This document shows, piece by piece, positions 49,283 through 54,792 of a stretch of 64,000 bases of DNA (position 1 is its first letter; each line of letters begins with the position of its first letter). The notes under the pieces were generated by a model. The model was not told the DNA's origin. It made no database searches and saw only the letters and a list, made by a program, of their open reading frames with translations. The DNA is from Oscillospiraceae bacterium (GTDB taxonomy: Bacteria > Bacillota > Clostridia > Oscillospirales > Ruminococcaceae). The stretch is from NCBI GenBank assembly GCA_017847835.1, contig JAGASH010000006.1, positions 20,160 through 84,159 of the forward strand, in the 5' to 3' direction. The translations under genes and the position numbers were made by a program.

Positions 49283-49318
49283 GTGTTTTGAAAAAGTTTA
49301 TGTGATTTTTTCTGCTTG

Positions 49319-49348
49319 TCATATCTGTCCGCGTTTTTTCATAACAAT
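49319..49348 (+). promoter_or_regulatory. Possible SigE-like mother-cell promoter of the deacetylase
   Basis: TCATATC (about 49319-49325), about 14 bases, CATAACAAT (49340-49348). It resembles the SigE pattern (ATA-type -35, CATACANT-type -10), and no SigA consensus precedes the gene. Weak evidence alone, but it agrees with a sporulation role. Confidence 0.35.
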
Positions 49349-49377
49349 ATAACAAAAAATTCAACGGAGGTTACTAT

Positions 49378-50136
49378 ATGAGAGCAGTTTCTATAACAAA
49401 ACGACAAATCAAGCGCATAGCCGCAATAACCGCAGCAGCCGCGGCAACAGCTGCCGTGATAATCACCGCCGCTGTCACTTCAGTCGGCACAAAAGCAGAG
49501 CAGCGAAAGCTCCCGATTTACCGCGTGGAGCGCGCCGACAACAAGATTGCCGTCACATTTGACGTTGCGTGGGAAAACTCGAACACCGACGAGTTGCTCG
49601 ATATCCTCGATGAATATGACGCAAAGGCAACCTTTTTCATCACGGGTGACTGGTGCGACCGTTATCCCGACGATGTGAAAAAGTTTGCAGACGCGGGTCA
49701 CGAAATCGAAAATCACTCCGACAAGCACCCGCACGTCGAGGGAATTAACGTCAACGATTTAATCAACGACACGCGCGAGTGTTCCCGAAAAATCAAGATG
49801 ATTACAGGAAAAGAACCCGTGCTTTACAGAGCGCCCTACGGGGAATATGACGACTCACTTCTCACAACGCTTGAAGGTATGGGTCTGAAAACAATCCAAT
49901 GGGACGTTGAACCAAACGATACAGATGGAAAATCCCTTGCAGAGCCGTTTCGTAAGCTCTGCGGGGATTTTTCAGAATTTCCACTCGATTTCAATGCGTT
50001 CTTCCCACAGCAAAACCCGCGAGATGAACTCTCCCGCAATTCTTCGCTTCACTTCAACGGGCATTTCCGGAAAATCGTCCAGCAGCGTTATCACGGTTTC
50101 ATAGCTCTCCCGCGGAAGCTCTTCGCACGAATTTGA
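49378..50136 (+). CDS. Sporulation-type polysaccharide deacetylase, 5' part, interrupted
   Basis: The native coding part is 49378-49910 (177 codons); beyond that the frame runs into the inserted element and stops at 50136, giving a 252-aa truncated product. Membrane anchor helix at residues 14-35. NodB motifs 1-3 are present: TFDVAWE, HSDKHPH (His ligands) and RAPYGEY. Motif 4 is cut after TIQWDV. The gene resumes at 54270. Closest type is PdaB, a spore-cortex or forespore-envelope deacetylase; GGAGG precedes ATG. Confidence 0.88.
   Translation: MRAVSITKRQIKRIAAITAAAAATAAVIITAAVTSVGTKAEQRKLPIYRVERADNKIAVTFDVAWENSNTDELLDILDEYDAKATFFITGDWCDRYPDDVKKFADAGHEIENHSDKHPHVEGINVNDLINDTRECSRKIKMITGKEPVLYRAPYGEYDDSLLTTLEGMGLKTIQWDVEPNDTDGKSLAEPFRKLCGDFSEFPLDFNAFFPQQNPRDELSRNSSLHFNGHFRKIVQQRYHGFIALPRKLFARI
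49909..49931. other. attL: left junction of the inserted element
   Basis: Core GA at 49909-49910. The element side has GATAC (49918-49922) and TGGAAA (49926-49931), the mirror half of the arm at the right end. The gene side ends in GGGACGTT. Confidence 0.75.
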
Positions 50137-51453
50137 AAGCTCCCGCCGAAGTTCTTCGCGCTCGGAAATCAGCTTTTCCAGACGCTCTTCAAGAACTTTT
50201 CCTATCGAAACGTTTGTTTCGGAAATCCTGCTCACGAGATTGTCAATCTGCTCGTCAAGCGCTTCGAGCCGCATTTTAATTCTGTTTGCTTTAGGAGAGG
50301 ATTTTGGCTTTTCGCTCGGGTGAAAGCCTCGGATTTCCGTGAATTTCTTTTTCAGTTCCGAATATACCGCGTCCTCCGCGTCCGAAATCAGCGGTTTTCC
50401 CGAAATTCCCGCGCAGGTGTGGTGGTTTGCCCTGCCCGAGCAATAAAAATATTCACCCGACACAACCCGCATTGCATAGCCGCATTTCCCACATTTCAGC
50501 AGTCCCGTCAGCCACGAATACGAGCCGCTTTTGCCTTTTTTGAGCTGCGTGTTCCCGTCAAGCTTTCGCTGAACGTCAAGCCACAGCTCCGATGAAATCA
50601 CACCGTTATGCAAGCCCAGCGACAAAACGTGCCCGCTGACGTCGGTGTATTTTCGCTCGTTTGCCTCGCGCTTTCCGTACAGGAAACAGCCGCGTTCTCC
50701 CGTGAAATCCTCCGCAGGATTTGAGATTTTCGCGCCCTTTTCCTTGAAATACCGAAAAACCTCCATATCAGCGCAGACGTAAACGGGGCTGCGCAGAATA
50801 CGGCTGAGCTTGCTGCTGTCCCAGAGCGCGCCCGCAGGCGACGGGATTTCGCGCTCGTTCAGCGCTTTCACGATATCTCCGAGTGAACAGCCGCTTTTGC
50901 CGTATTCGGAAAATATGTACTCAACCGTTGAAATATCGCTGTTAGGCGAGAGCGCTGACGTTCGCACACCGCCGAGCTTTGTCGGGATTTTGTCGAAGCC
51001 GTACACGGGAACACCGCCGAGATACATTCCCTTTTCACCGCGTGAATAGTAGTTGTCGCGGACGCGCAGAAGAATATTTTCACGTTCAAGCTCCGCGAAA
51101 ACCATTATAATCCCGAGCATTGCCCTGCCTATTGCCGTTGACGTGTCGAACGTTTCCACGGTTGACGCAAACTCAACTCCGTATTTCCGGAAAATCTCGA
51201 CAAGTCCCGAAAAATCGCACAACGAACGGCTAATTCTGTCCAGCTTGTACACGACGAGCTTTGCGATTTCACCCGATTTTATATCCGCGAGAAGCTGCTG
51301 AAACTGCGGACGTTCGAGATTTTTCCCGCTCCAGCCTTTGTCCGTGTACACTCGGATTTCTCCCTCGCAGCACCGTCTGCAAGCCTCAATCTGTGTTTCT
51401 ATGGAAATGCTGTCCTTTTTGTCAACGCTTTGCCGCGCATAAATCGCCGTCAT
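49972..51453 (-). CDS. Large serine recombinase (SpoIVCA/SprA-like)
   Basis: 493 aa. Resolvase domain with catalytic Ser9 in YARQSVDKKDS, and arginines in LVVYKLDRISRS and AELERENI. A recombinase domain follows (about 165-270), then a zinc ribbon (CGKCGYAM ... YYC ... HHTC, about 325-360) and a coiled coil (about 385-445). This is the architecture of phage-type and sporulation-type large serine recombinases, which cut attP/attB at a 2-bp core. Its stop codon lies 61 bases inside the element's left end. GGGGGAACG precedes ATG 51453. Confidence 0.95.
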   Translation of the reverse strand: MTAIYARQSVDKKDSISIETQIEACRRCCEGEIRVYTDKGWSGKNLERPQFQQLLADIKSGEIAKLVVYKLDRISRSLCDFSGLVEIFRKYGVEFASTVETFDTSTAIGRAMLGIIMVFAELERENILLRVRDNYYSRGEKGMYLGGVPVYGFDKIPTKLGGVRTSALSPNSDISTVEYIFSEYGKSGCSLGDIVKALNEREIPSPAGALWDSSKLSRILRSPVYVCADMEVFRYFKEKGAKISNPAEDFTGERGCFLYGKREANERKYTDVSGHVLSLGLHNGVISSELWLDVQRKLDGNTQLKKGKSGSYSWLTGLLKCGKCGYAMRVVSGEYFYCSGRANHHTCAGISGKPLISDAEDAVYSELKKKFTEIRGFHPSEKPKSSPKANRIKMRLEALDEQIDNLVSRISETNVSIGKVLEERLEKLISEREELRRELSNSCEELPRESYETVITLLDDFPEMPVEVKRRIAGEFISRVLLWEERIEIEWKF

Positions 51454-51469
51454 TTATCGTTCCCCCAAA

Positions 51470-51592
51470 TCAAGCGTTTTTGCCGATTTCCCGCTTATAC
51501 CGCAAAAGCTCCTCGTAAACCCGCCGTGCGGCTTCATTCCGCGGTTTTTCCGTCTGCGCGCAGGGTGATTTTGTCGTGATTTTATAACCCAT
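51470..51592 (-). CDS. 40-aa small protein next to the recombinase
   Basis: ATG 51592 follows AAAGGGGCGGG; the peptide starts MGYKITTKSPCAQTEKP and ends in a basic helix (ARRVYEELLRYKREIGKNA). It stops 16 bases before the recombinase ATG, so the two are co-transcribed. Function unknown. Size, charge and position would fit an accessory such as a recombination directionality factor, but no motif proves it. Confidence 0.55.
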   Translation of the reverse strand: MGYKITTKSPCAQTEKPRNEAARRVYEELLRYKREIGKNA

Positions 51593-51651
51593 TTTCCCGC
51601 CCCTTTCTCACTATAAATATAGTTTGTCCGAGGACGGATTATGACAGGCAA

Positions 51652-51683
51652 AACAAAAAGGCACACTAAAAAGGTATGCCTTT
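51652..51683 (-). terminator. Terminator of the kdpDE-like operon
   Basis: On minus, AAAGGCATAC pairs with GTGTGCCTTT (one G-T pair), then TTTTTG. It separates kdpDE from the recombinase unit. Confidence 0.75.
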
Positions 51684-51698
51684 ATAATTTTTCGATTT

Positions 51699-52397
51699 TC
51701 AGAGCTTGTTCATTCGATAGCCTACTCCGACGTGAGTTTGAATATACTGCTGACCGGATTTCGAGCTCTTGTCGAGCTTCTTGCGAAGCGTTGCCATAAA
51801 CACTCGCAGCGACGCAACATCGCTGTCAAACGAGCTGCCCCAGATACTGTTTGTGATAAACGTATGCGTGAGAACTTTTCCGCTGTTTTTCGCCAGAAGG
51901 CACAAAAGCTTGTATTCAATCGGCGTGAGGTGGATTTCCTCGCTGTTTATAAACACGCTTCCCGCAGCGTAATCAATCTTCATCTCACCGTTTCTGAACT
52001 CGGAGTCCTCGGGGTCGGAATTTTTAAGGCTTGCAAGACGGCGCTGCGTAACGCGAAGCCTTGCAAGAAGCTCCTCGACGGAAAACGGCTTTGTGAGGTA
52101 ATCGTCGGCGCCGGAGTCAAGAGCGTCGATTTTGTCGGTATCCTCGCAGCGTGCGCTAATCACAATTATCGGCACCTCCGACCAATTGCGGACGCGCTTT
52201 ATCACGTCAATTCCGTCGATATCCGGCAGCCCCAAATCCAACAAAACGATATCCGGCTTCTTCGACGAAATTGCCTGAAGCGCGTTCTGACCGTTTTCGG
52301 CTCTTATGTACCTGTAATCGTGAGTATCCAGCGTTGTCGTGATAAGATTTCGCACAGCGATGTCGTCTTCAACCACAAGAATTGTTGTTTTATTCAT
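51699..52397 (-). CDS. KdpE-like OmpR-family response regulator
   Basis: 232 aa from ATG 52397. Receiver domain with the acidic pair (VVEDD), phospho-Asp in VLLDLGLPDIDG (about residue 53), Thr/Ser in VISARCED and Lys in YLTKPFSVEEL. OmpR winged helix from about 130, ending in YIQTHVGVGYRM, typical of KdpE. It overlaps the kinase stop by 8 bases. No kdpFABC is in the window, so its target may be on or off the element. Confidence 0.88.
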   Translation of the reverse strand: MNKTTILVVEDDIAVRNLITTTLDTHDYRYIRAENGQNALQAISSKKPDIVLLDLGLPDIDGIDVIKRVRNWSEVPIIVISARCEDTDKIDALDSGADDYLTKPFSVEELLARLRVTQRRLASLKNSDPEDSEFRNGEMKIDYAAGSVFINSEEIHLTPIEYKLLCLLAKNSGKVLTHTFITNSIWGSSFDSDVASLRVFMATLRKKLDKSSKSGQQYIQTHVGVGYRMNKL

Positions 52398-53982
52398 GGA
52401 TTTTAACCTCCTCGACAGGCAGGGTAAAGCTGAAAACCGTGCCCTTTGGCTTGTTGTCGCGAACGGTAATTTCACCGCCGTGAGCGTTTATTATCGATTT
52501 GCATACAGCAAGTCCCAGACCAAGGCTTCGACGGCTGTCGGCAATTTTTGTTTCGGCGGTGTAGAACATCTCGAAAATTCTCGGCTTGTCCTTTTCGGAA
52601 ATTCCGTTTCCGTTGTCGGCTATTTCCACGACGACATTGTTTCCCTTTTTGAACGCACTCACGAAAATTTCGGTGTCTGCGGGCGAATACTTCACGGCAT
52701 TGTCCAGCAGATTTGCCAAAACCTGTACAATAAGCCGCGCGTCAATTTTCAGAATTAACAGCTCGTCGCTTTCTTTCACCGTGATTTTTCTTCCGCTTGT
52801 ATTGCGAACGCGCGAAACCGCCTCGTCGATAACCTCCTCCATAAGCTCCGAGCGAAGCCGAAGCTTTGTTGTGCCGTCCTCGATACGGGTGACCGAGAGC
52901 AGGTTTTCGACCAGATTTATCAGCCACAGCGAGTCGTCATAAATGCTCTTGTAAATAATCGCGCGCATTTCCGGCTCGATATCCTCCGACTCTGCCAGCA
53001 AAAATCCGGCATTTCCCGAAATCGACGTGAGAGGGGTTCTCAAATCGTGCGAAATCGACCGCAGAAGATTTGCACGGAGCTGCTCGTTTTGCGCGAGAAC
53101 AGCCGCGTCCTCTTTTTCCTTGATATTTCGCATATTGTTCAAAGCCAGCGCAAGCTCACCGATAATCGCCAGCACAACGCTTTTTTCAAAGGAGTCAAGC
53201 GGCTTGCTCCCGACAACAATTCCGAAAACTCCATAAACGCTGTCGGTGCCGCGAACCGCGATATAAAGGCACTTTTCCTCGGAAAGCTCTTCGGCTGAAT
53301 CCGAGCCGTTTTCATCACGGAAAACGCGCTCTGCTGCGGCTTTTTCCTCGGAGGAAATGCAATTTTCGGGAACAGTCTGTCCTTCCGCCGAAAAAATCTG
53401 CGGCTCGGAAAGCTCACCCAGATATTCATCATAGAAAATCACGCTTCGGTCAAGCAGCTTCGCAAGCTGATTTGCAGCCGCAGCCGTTGCCTCGGAACAG
53501 GTTTCGGCTTTTTGCAGCAGCTTGTCCGTGTCGAAAAGAATTCTCGTCTGATAAGCCGTCAATGCCGATTTTTTTGCATTTTGCTTGATTATCGTGGCAA
53601 GAGTGCTCGTGATAAACGCTGAAGCAAACATAACCGCAAAGGTTATCGGGAAGCTCGGGTCATACACGCTGAGCGAAAAAAGCGGCTCTGTGAATATGAA
53701 ATTGAAAGTGAGAACGCTTACAAGCGAGGATATAAAACAAAACCACCGGTTTGTGGTAATGAGCGAAAGCACCAGCACTCCGAAAATATACACGGTGATG
53801 ATATTCACCATACTCACACCGAAATGCTCGAAAAGAAGCCCGATACCCGTCGCAGCAGCGATAACCACGATTGTTTTTATGATATCCGACAAAATGTGCC
53901 GTTTTGAACCCGATTTCAGTTTTTTGCGCCTGAAATCTGCAGAAGGCTCCGGACCTGTGAAAATATCACTTTCGCCGAGCAC
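52390..53982 (-). CDS. KdpD-like sensor histidine kinase (DUF4118), start uncertain
   Basis: 530 aa in the open frame starting at GTG 53982, which has no ribosome site. DUF4118 four-TM region (about 30-145), GAF-like domain (about 150-290), HisKA with SISHDLRTPL, HATPase N box NLLDNAVKYSP and G box LGLGLAVCKSI. The ~370-residue N-terminal KdpD sensor of enterobacteria is missing. A well-placed start (ATG 54032, GGGTGA upstream, consensus promoter) lies in the other frame and meets this one at an A AAA AAG heptamer. Confidence 0.85.
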   Translation of the reverse strand: MLGESDIFTGPEPSADFRRKKLKSGSKRHILSDIIKTIVVIAAATGIGLLFEHFGVSMVNIITVYIFGVLVLSLITTNRWFCFISSLVSVLTFNFIFTEPLFSLSVYDPSFPITFAVMFASAFITSTLATIIKQNAKKSALTAYQTRILFDTDKLLQKAETCSEATAAAANQLAKLLDRSVIFYDEYLGELSEPQIFSAEGQTVPENCISSEEKAAAERVFRDENGSDSAEELSEEKCLYIAVRGTDSVYGVFGIVVGSKPLDSFEKSVVLAIIGELALALNNMRNIKEKEDAAVLAQNEQLRANLLRSISHDLRTPLTSISGNAGFLLAESEDIEPEMRAIIYKSIYDDSLWLINLVENLLSVTRIEDGTTKLRLRSELMEEVIDEAVSRVRNTSGRKITVKESDELLILKIDARLIVQVLANLLDNAVKYSPADTEIFVSAFKKGNNVVVEIADNGNGISEKDKPRIFEMFYTAETKIADSRRSLGLGLAVCKSIINAHGGEITVRDNKPKGTVFSFTLPVEEVKIHE

Positions 53983-53988
53983 TTTTTT
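53982..53988 (-). other. Slippery heptamer A AAA AAG at the start of kdpD
   Basis: Read from ATG 54032 the codons are ATA AAA AAG TGC. A -1 shift at the heptamer continues as GTG CTC GGC into the kinase frame. This is the same heptamer and phase used in E. coli dnaX. Without a shift the upstream frame stops after 38 codons. A one-base change in the six-A run would have the same effect. Confidence 0.5.
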
Positions 53989-54049
53989 ATTGTTGAAATT
54001 AACTTGTTGGGCGCTGATTTTTCATCTTTCATAATGTTCACCCTATATC

Positions 54050-54078
54050 ATTATAACCGATTTCACATTGCTTTGCAA
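54050..54078 (-). promoter_or_regulatory. Promoter of the kdpDE-like operon
   Basis: Minus-strand TTGCAA (54073-54078), 17-base spacer, TATAAT (54050-54055), about 20 bases upstream of ATG 54032. It implies vegetative expression of the cargo kinase. Confidence 0.6.
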
Positions 54079-54248
54079 GTGCAAATAAGAAATAATTTTA
54101 CAATTTCTGTTATTTTCGTGAAAAACCCGTAAAAAAAAGAGCAAATTCGGTCAATTTTCGACATTCTTGTTATAAAGACGGGTTTCAAGCACGGTGTTAT
54201 TGAAATCGGGCATTCGCTAATTATTTCGCGTGTCGCGACAGAGATTGA

Positions 54249-54271
54249 TTTCCAACCGTATCCAACGCCGA
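54249..54271. other. attR: right junction of the inserted element
   Basis: TTTCCA (54249-54254), N3, GTATC (54258-54262), N7, core GA (54270-54271). The gene side continues CAGCGTAGACTGG. Confidence 0.75.
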
Positions 54272-54752
54272 CAGCGTAGACTGGAACAAGCCTACCTCCG
54301 AGCAGATTACAAAAAAGGTTCTCGACAACACGAAATCCGGCTCAATTCTGCTGTTCCACAATGATTTGCAGAACACAACCGAAGCTCTGCCGAATGTCCT
54401 CAAAGGGTTGAAAGAAAAGGGCTTTGAGTTTGTGACGGTTGACGAGCTGATACTCCACGAAAACTACACAATCGACGCAAACGGCGAACAGCAGCCCACC
54501 GCCCAAAGCCTCAACATCTCCGATGAAAAGGTTGAGGAGGTTATGGCAAAGTATCACGACGAGCTTTCTGCGGCGGGTGTAACCGACGAGCAGATTTCCG
54601 CTGCCGTTGCCGCAATCAGAAACGGAGATTTGAGCATTCTGCCCGAAGAACTCCGTCCGCTTGCGCTGGAGGTTATGTCAAAGCTCAAAGACAACAAATC
54701 CGATGATGTCCCCGCAAACGCGCCCGACAATACTCCGGCTTTGCAGAAATAA
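54270..54752 (+). CDS. Polysaccharide deacetylase, 3' part, interrupted
   Basis: 160 codons plus stop, open from the right junction and without a start of its own (a TTG at 54366 is the first possible). It begins DSVDWNKPTSEQ, the rest of motif 4, and continues through motif 5, SILLFHN, and the end of the NodB fold (TVDELILHENY). About 85 extra C-terminal residues follow, partly helical and acidic. It has no ribosome site, so it should be made only after excision of the element. Confidence 0.85.
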   Translation, partial: DSVDWNKPTSEQITKKVLDNTKSGSILLFHNDLQNTTEALPNVLKGLKEKGFEFVTVDELILHENYTIDANGEQQPTAQSLNISDEKVEEVMAKYHDELSAAGVTDEQISAAVAAIRNGDLSILPEELRPLALEVMSKLKDNKSDDVPANAPDNTPALQK

Positions 54753-54760
54753 ATATGCGA

Positions 54761-54792
54761 AATCCCCCAAATTCGGTTTTGGGGGATTTTTT
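54761..54792 (+). terminator. Terminator of the deacetylase gene
   Basis: AATCCCCCAAA pairs with TTTTGGGGGATT, then TTTTTTG. It shows that the 3' part is the real end of a transcription unit. Confidence 0.9.

Follow-up and report, generated by a model that had tools for sequence, protein, structure and literature searches.

A PdaB-like polysaccharide deacetylase gene split by a putative sporulation gene-intervening element in Clostridia

A stretch of 64,000 nucleotides (the window) from contig JAGASH010000006.1 of an Oscillospiraceae bacterium (GenBank assembly GCA_017847835.1) was analysed. The genome of the window (G000) consisted of 2.18 Mb in 23 contigs and was 99.6% complete. In this window, a polysaccharide deacetylase gene resembling pdaB, with a likely role in spore construction, was interrupted by an element of 4,361 bp encoding a large serine recombinase. 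Its own recombinase is predicted to excise the element from the mother-cell chromosome during sporulation, so that a deacetylase gene of 337 codons would be restored in frame. The sequence comparisons make it very probable that this is a sporulation gene-intervening element of a new and widely distributed sort. The case for programmed excision is drawn from the recurrence of the split at one codon with related recombinases, the retention of both gene halves, the purifying selection that has acted on the 3′ half since a shared insertion, the sporulation background of the hosts and a conserved promoter. An earlier note on this DNA had proposed the gene as a further member of the class of sporulation genes rebuilt by recombination, and the same lines of evidence now support that proposal.

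The split gene and the ends of the element

The 5′ part of the gene (49378–49908, forward strand; codons 1–177) was assigned to PF01522, and the 3′ part (54270–54752, forward strand) consisted of 160 codons and a stop codon. Past QWDV, which ended at 49908, the 5′ open reading frame (ORF) ran into element sequence up to a stop at 50136 and reached 252 amino acids (aa) altogether. The 3′ part opened with DSVDWNKP at 54270 and ended with TAA at 54750–54752, after which a terminator-like hairpin with a T-run could be read by eye (54761–54792, forward strand). The NCBIfam model TIGR02764 (PdaB, 191 positions) matched the 5′ ORF over positions 1–138 and the 3′ part over positions 129–191. Because these matches adjoin in order, the two parts represent consecutive pieces of one domain, in agreement with the earlier placement of the break after QWDV and its resumption at DSVDWNKP (within motif 4 of the NodB numbering). 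The name PdaB-like is used only in the loose sense, since the intact relative in genome G016 scored 212.6 bits against the curated cut-off of 237.4; an assignment as PdaB equivalog was thereby ruled out.

Rejoining of 177 and 160 codons gave 337 codons in frame, and uninterrupted relatives read QWD[VTA]DS[VI]DW through the split point, which shows that the GA crossover suggested earlier was placed correctly. The earlier emphasis on in-frame restorability stood as far as the frame is concerned, but it proves little alone, because restoration of the target is automatic for any fresh site-specific integrant.

Comparison with contiguous relatives delimited the element to 49909–54269. The left end (predicted attL; 49909–49931, forward strand) comprises the GA dinucleotide and the inner arm ACCAAACGATACAGATGGAAA, and the right end (predicted attR; 54249–54271, forward strand) comprises the inner arm TTTCCAACCGTATCCAACGCC and the GA dinucleotide. 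Immediately after the break, GA was followed by an arm with GATAC[AG]GATGG in all eight split genes of the same genus. The two arms in the window formed an inverted repeat at 12 of 20 positions, a value equalled or exceeded by 0 of 5000 shuffles. Right ends could be read in six of the eight split same-genus genomes, and all six elements with both ends read had inverted repeats flanking GA (12–18 of 20 positions; no more than 3 of 5000 shuffles did as well). The attachment site of a serine integrase carries a central dinucleotide within such arms; this layout therefore places the crossover at the same GA.

The recombinase is encoded on the complementary strand (49972–51453; 493 aa; PF00239, PF07508, PF13408). 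Its frame was intact with resolvase, recombinase and zinc-ribbon domains, and serine 9 was invariant in the eight aligned relatives. Just upstream, a 40-codon ORF (51470–51592, complementary strand) may encode a recombination directionality factor. No match to it was found in Pfam or NCBIfam. A small ORF occupied a like position in all seven same-genus elements read and in many other relatives; the idea that such an ORF is peculiar to sporulation elements was rejected, as mobile-looking relatives also carry one.

Recurrence within the genus and across Clostridia

The same-genus set comprised 43 genomes, of which 41 had a deacetylase orthologue (G002 and G007 had none). The gene was contiguous in 33 of these 41, the nearest being 97–98% identical to the window in the 5′ part, and it was split at one codon in the remaining eight (G000, G003, G004, G014, G015, G020, G026 and G030). 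Close relatives thus held the uninterrupted orthologues that the earlier note had expected, and none of the genomes examined held the halves as separate full genes. The shared break, together with the intact recombinase, also bears out the view that a recombinase element splits the gene, and its recurrence in these eight genomes and at the wider set of loci described below goes beyond chance. Recombinases of the seven other split genomes were orthologous and 72–78% identical to that of the window, with a ratio of nonsynonymous to synonymous substitution rates (dN/dS) of 0.057–0.140 over 21 same-genus pairs. The halves of the deacetylase lay on different contigs in G003, G004, G014 and G015, and the G003 recombinase appeared as two fragments on separate contigs. 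In G015, a recombinase lay approximately 4 kb upstream of the 5′ part, amid mobile-looking DNA. A second recombinase copy of G015 (L219, contig C69) was broken into two frames; locus L119 is probably on the same contig.

A scan with the alignment of eight recombinases, covering a single genome for each species, gave at least 594 pattern matches; at least 500 of them coded for relatives, and from these the 80 best loci were taken. The deacetylase was split beside the recombinase in 36 of these best 80 loci and contiguous in none, while neither half occurred within the flanks of the other 44. Both halves were seen at seven of the 36 split loci, the 5′ half at 14 and the 3′ half at 15. Carriers of the split gene included Defluviitalea, Vallitalea, Oscillibacter, Anaerovorax, Caproicibacter, Anaerotignum, Anaeromassilibacillus, Lawsonibacter, Butyricicoccus and records of Candidatus Epulonipiscium. 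A whole-genome search for the halves with the uninterrupted G016 protein covered 34 of the 36 (the other two were G030 and G026 again), and a manual tally revealed both halves clearly kept in 29 of the 34. Wherever the halves shared a contig (15 genomes), they stood on the same strand and in gene order, 3.8–39 kb apart (15 of 15). Among 55 loci with a related recombinase in a viral collection, three (L259, L266 and L292) contained a deacetylase piece; these may be host DNA or prophages at the deacetylase site.

A tree of 94 recombinases was built by a quick method, with Shimodaira–Hasegawa approximate likelihood-ratio test (SH-aLRT) supports only, no mixture model and long-branch warnings; on it, the label of lying by a split deacetylase (41 rows) needed 8 changes against 30.9 in shuffles, and 0 of 500 shuffles were as low. 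Labelled rows mostly occupied deeper branches, and the rows lacking the label included groups near-identical across families, as is usual for mobile elements. Many such loci (L147–L186) came from Holdemania, Roseburia, Gemmiger, Hungatella and others and had a similar small ORF approximately 100 nt upstream; they probably belong to a mobile element whose partner protein is shared throughout the family. Mantel comparison of recombinase and host-gene distances gave r 0.47 (p 0.0005; 25 rows) for the 5′ half and r 0.20 (p 0.0035; 27 rows) for the 3′ half. With a single same-genus row retained, r was 0.46 for the 5′ half (p 0.001) and 0.18 for the 3′ half (p 0.048).

The elements of G020 and G030 share TrkA, TrkH, phosphofructokinase (PFK) and recombinase genes, with synonymous divergence (dS) of 0.76, 0.64, 0.59 and 0.93, respectively; the dS of the deacetylase halves was 0.59 and 0.98. 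Since the cargo is shared and the dS values are similar, the insertion very probably predates the split of the two host species. The dN/dS of the 3′ half was 0.089, and these comparisons indicate that the severed half has very probably been under purifying selection since an insertion older than the species split. Recombinase and host-gene dS were about even in L135/L136 and L141/L146, and the recombinase was the closer of the two in L129/L137 and L180/L184, at near-saturated dS. The pairs L114/L118 and L127/L128 could not be compared and were left out.

Sporulation context and competing explanations

A putative sigma-E-like promoter was found ahead of the deacetylase (49318–49349, forward strand), consisting of TGTCATATC (−35-like), a 14-nt spacer and CATAACAATA (−10-like). 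The pattern GTCATA[AT][TC], with [CA]ATA at a distance of 14 nt behind it, was present in 29 of the 30 orthologue upstream regions examined, drawn from the 41 genomes with the gene, and G032 had a variant. In Clostridioides difficile, the −35 region of sigma-E promoters is reported to contain an ATA motif, and sigma-E to control three polysaccharide deacetylases (PMC3789822). The sporulation protein SpoIVA scored above its cut-off in 70 of 81 genomes, including G000. A sigma-E promoter for the recombinase is not claimed, as a like site beat shuffles at 0.03 or better in only three of seven elements.

According to the mechanism proposed here, sigma-E RNA polymerase would transcribe the deacetylase in the mother cell, as its promoter suggests. 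The recombinase would then join attL with attR at GA, probably with assistance from the 40-aa product of the small ORF that lies directly upstream of its gene. By analogy with the skin element of sigK, the excised circle would stay in the dying mother cell and the forespore chromosome would keep the split copy.

The gene sigK itself was split in a skin-like manner in several genomes (L232–L236). Both halves were present in G020 (C4) and in G047 (C8, same family), and the 5′ half in G031 (C9) and G038 (C4); a serine recombinase lay close to one half in each of the four. G000 contained the 3′ half of sigK four times, in near-identical copies that differed in their leaders (C7:35766, C7:47596, C7:52777 and C19:12962; L188–L191), and the sigK search of this genome listed no matching 5′ half for them.

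Several observations weigh against programmed excision. Calibration of the sigma-E-like motif on spoIVA failed, the motif being absent from 12 upstream regions of that gene; these regions resemble the end of a preceding gene. The core motif had three exact matches in G000, and only that of the deacetylase preceded a recognisable gene; the sigma-E-like site before the recombinase of the window ranked fifth within the element. Only one half of the deacetylase was found in four of the 34 carrier genomes (G087, G091, G097 and G107), and G084 was ambiguous. No stretch with the attP pattern of an excised circle was found in viral contigs. In the lineage of the window, the 3′ half was less constrained (dN/dS 0.127 and 0.158) compared to G016-G019 (0.058), the nearest relatives of the window were free of the element, and the insertion in the window may itself be young. 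Finally, the recombinases were far closer than the host genes in L140/L144 (dS 0.15 against 0.96 for the 3′ half) and L131/L138 (0.28 against 1.93 for the 5′ half). The elements therefore also move horizontally, and purely vertical descent was rejected for at least these two pairs.

In the chief rival explanation, the deacetylase is the conserved target at which a selfish integrative element lands, and the gene stays broken in carriers until chance exit or transfer restores it. The two horizontally moving pairs, the element-free nearest relatives, the mobile-looking recombinase groups near-identical across families and the automatic restoration of the frame would all be expected from such an element. 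It would not, however, account readily for the constraint on the 3′ half in G020 and G030 after an insertion older than the species, for the retention of both halves in 29 of 34 genomes or for the host-type cargo described below, and we consider this explanation unlikely. Programmed excision and a selfish element may nevertheless both be partly true, as the case of SP-beta (below) illustrates. Alternatively, the break could be tolerated, with the truncated 5′ product or a paralogue doing the work and the 3′ half being kept by chance or for another use. The 252-aa continuation of the 5′ ORF, two further deacetylase matches in G000 and an intact paralogue in G095 are compatible with this, but the conserved domain is incomplete at its end in the 5′ product, and the 3′ half is constrained in frame although no start of its own conserved with that frame was found. 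A tolerated break thus has little to recommend it. An assembly or binning artefact could be suspected from the 23 contigs of G000 and from the many metagenome assemblies among its relatives. It is hardly credible, given one break with orthologous recombinases in eight genomes and the split in isolates of Oscillibacter valericigenes Sjm18-20 (complete genome), O. ruminantium, Caproicibacter fermentans and Anaerovorax odorimutans.

Cargo, relation to known elements and implications

Two cargo genes occupy the rest of the element in the window. A KdpE-like response regulator (51699–52475, complementary strand) carried PF00072 and PF00486, and its best NCBIfam match was KdpE, below the cut-off. 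An N-terminally truncated KdpD-like sensor kinase (52390–53982, complementary strand) with DUF4118, HisKA and HATPase_c domains aligned to positions 397–885 of the 895 in the KdpD model. Among 44 genomes, orthologues of the kinase 72–74% identical to it were found in G015, G016, G019 and G022; the frames were 693–908 aa long in G015, G016 and G022, and that of G019 was cut by the contig end. In G016, approximately 10 kb separated the orthologous KdpDE pair (L228, C17:36310) from the intact deacetylase gene, and the pair was oriented relative to that gene as it is in the element of the window. No phage structural or replication gene was detected in the window's element by Pfam and NCBIfam, with no phage-specific library run; only the recombinase, regulator and kinase were recognised. 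A phage or plasmid origin was rejected, as the recombinase had no close match there (best 33.5% for phages and 39.5% for plasmids among the matches listed). The earlier description of a small non-phage element fits the window, but related elements reach approximately 39 kb.

In G020 and G030, PFK (PF00365) lay inside the element, and its closest orthologue lay elsewhere in G021, G016 and G000, where other PFK matches were approximately 30% identical (12 genomes searched). The potassium transport genes for TrkA and TrkH (PF02254, PF02386) were also inside the G020 and G030 elements and on the element contig of G014. Cargo of other elements included a sodium:alanine symporter, HD-domain proteins and a pyridine-nucleotide oxidoreductase, and ORFs resembling polysaccharide synthesis genes could be recognised by eye in the G020 and G026 elements. 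Such host-type cargo would fit a segment that is lost only from a dying cell.

A related recombinase clade adjoined a split asparagine synthetase gene (PF00733) at L239, L240, L241, L017 and L245–L251 (genomes G018, G022, G038, G039 and G041) and at L150, L161, L168 and L172. The N-terminal part extended to about residue 468 and the C-terminal part began at about 456–468 in the numbering of the G016 protein; G016, G020 and G021 had the gene uninterrupted, and G000 lacked it. Asparagine synthetase is a possible second target of one recombinase family. Opinion is evenly balanced on a wider proposal, that a single recombinase family is specialised in splitting mother-cell sporulation genes across Clostridia: the PdaB-like deacetylase at one codon and, by the related clade, asparagine synthetase at one place. 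The segments would by now be permanent parts of the chromosome, would hold host genes present in one copy (for phosphofructokinase and for potassium transport with its regulators) and would be discarded by the dying mother cell as it rebuilds its spore genes.

The kind of element is known. The fdxN element of heterocystous cyanobacteria undergoes programmed excision in a differentiating cell, with another host and gene than here; the recombinase of the window scored 129 bits against the XisF model of that element, far under the 375-bit cut-off. The closest parallel is skin in sigK of Bacillus subtilis and C. difficile, where a serine recombinase inside the element splits a mother-cell sporulation gene; in C. 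difficile, a 72-aa directionality factor is under sigma-E and SpoIIID (PMC5025042). Unlike skin, the present element targets a deacetylase, no phage-like gene was found in it, and its excision is predicted. The gin element in gerE of Bacillus cereus ATCC10987 is reported to lack phage genes and to be excised during sporulation by a serine recombinase and GirX (PMC5595907); gin has 28.6 kb, three recombinases and a shared core of 9 bp, whereas the window's element has 4.4 kb, one recombinase and a GA core. SP-beta in spsM, vfbin in spoVFB, vrin in spoVR and yin in yabG also split sporulation genes (PMC4191935, PMC10747680), but they are prophages or prophage-like and use other target genes. SP-beta is described as an active prophage that still rebuilds spsM in sporulation (PMC4191935).

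No report of an interrupted deacetylase as the target of such an element was found in searches of the open-licence literature, subscription papers and preprints lying outside the scope. Relative to the literature covered, the deacetylase target, its wide distribution in Clostridia and the host-type cargo are new. That literature names few gene-intervening elements in spore formers, most of them prophage-like and known from single genes (such as sigK, spsM, spoVFB, spoVR, gerE and yabG). The split also serves as a warning for annotation, as a possibly working sporulation gene is listed as two fragments. These elements offer many natural pairs of attachment sites, together with a recombinase and a very small protein that may control it. 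If the proposed excision is true, some hosts would discard part of a working chromosome in each mother cell.

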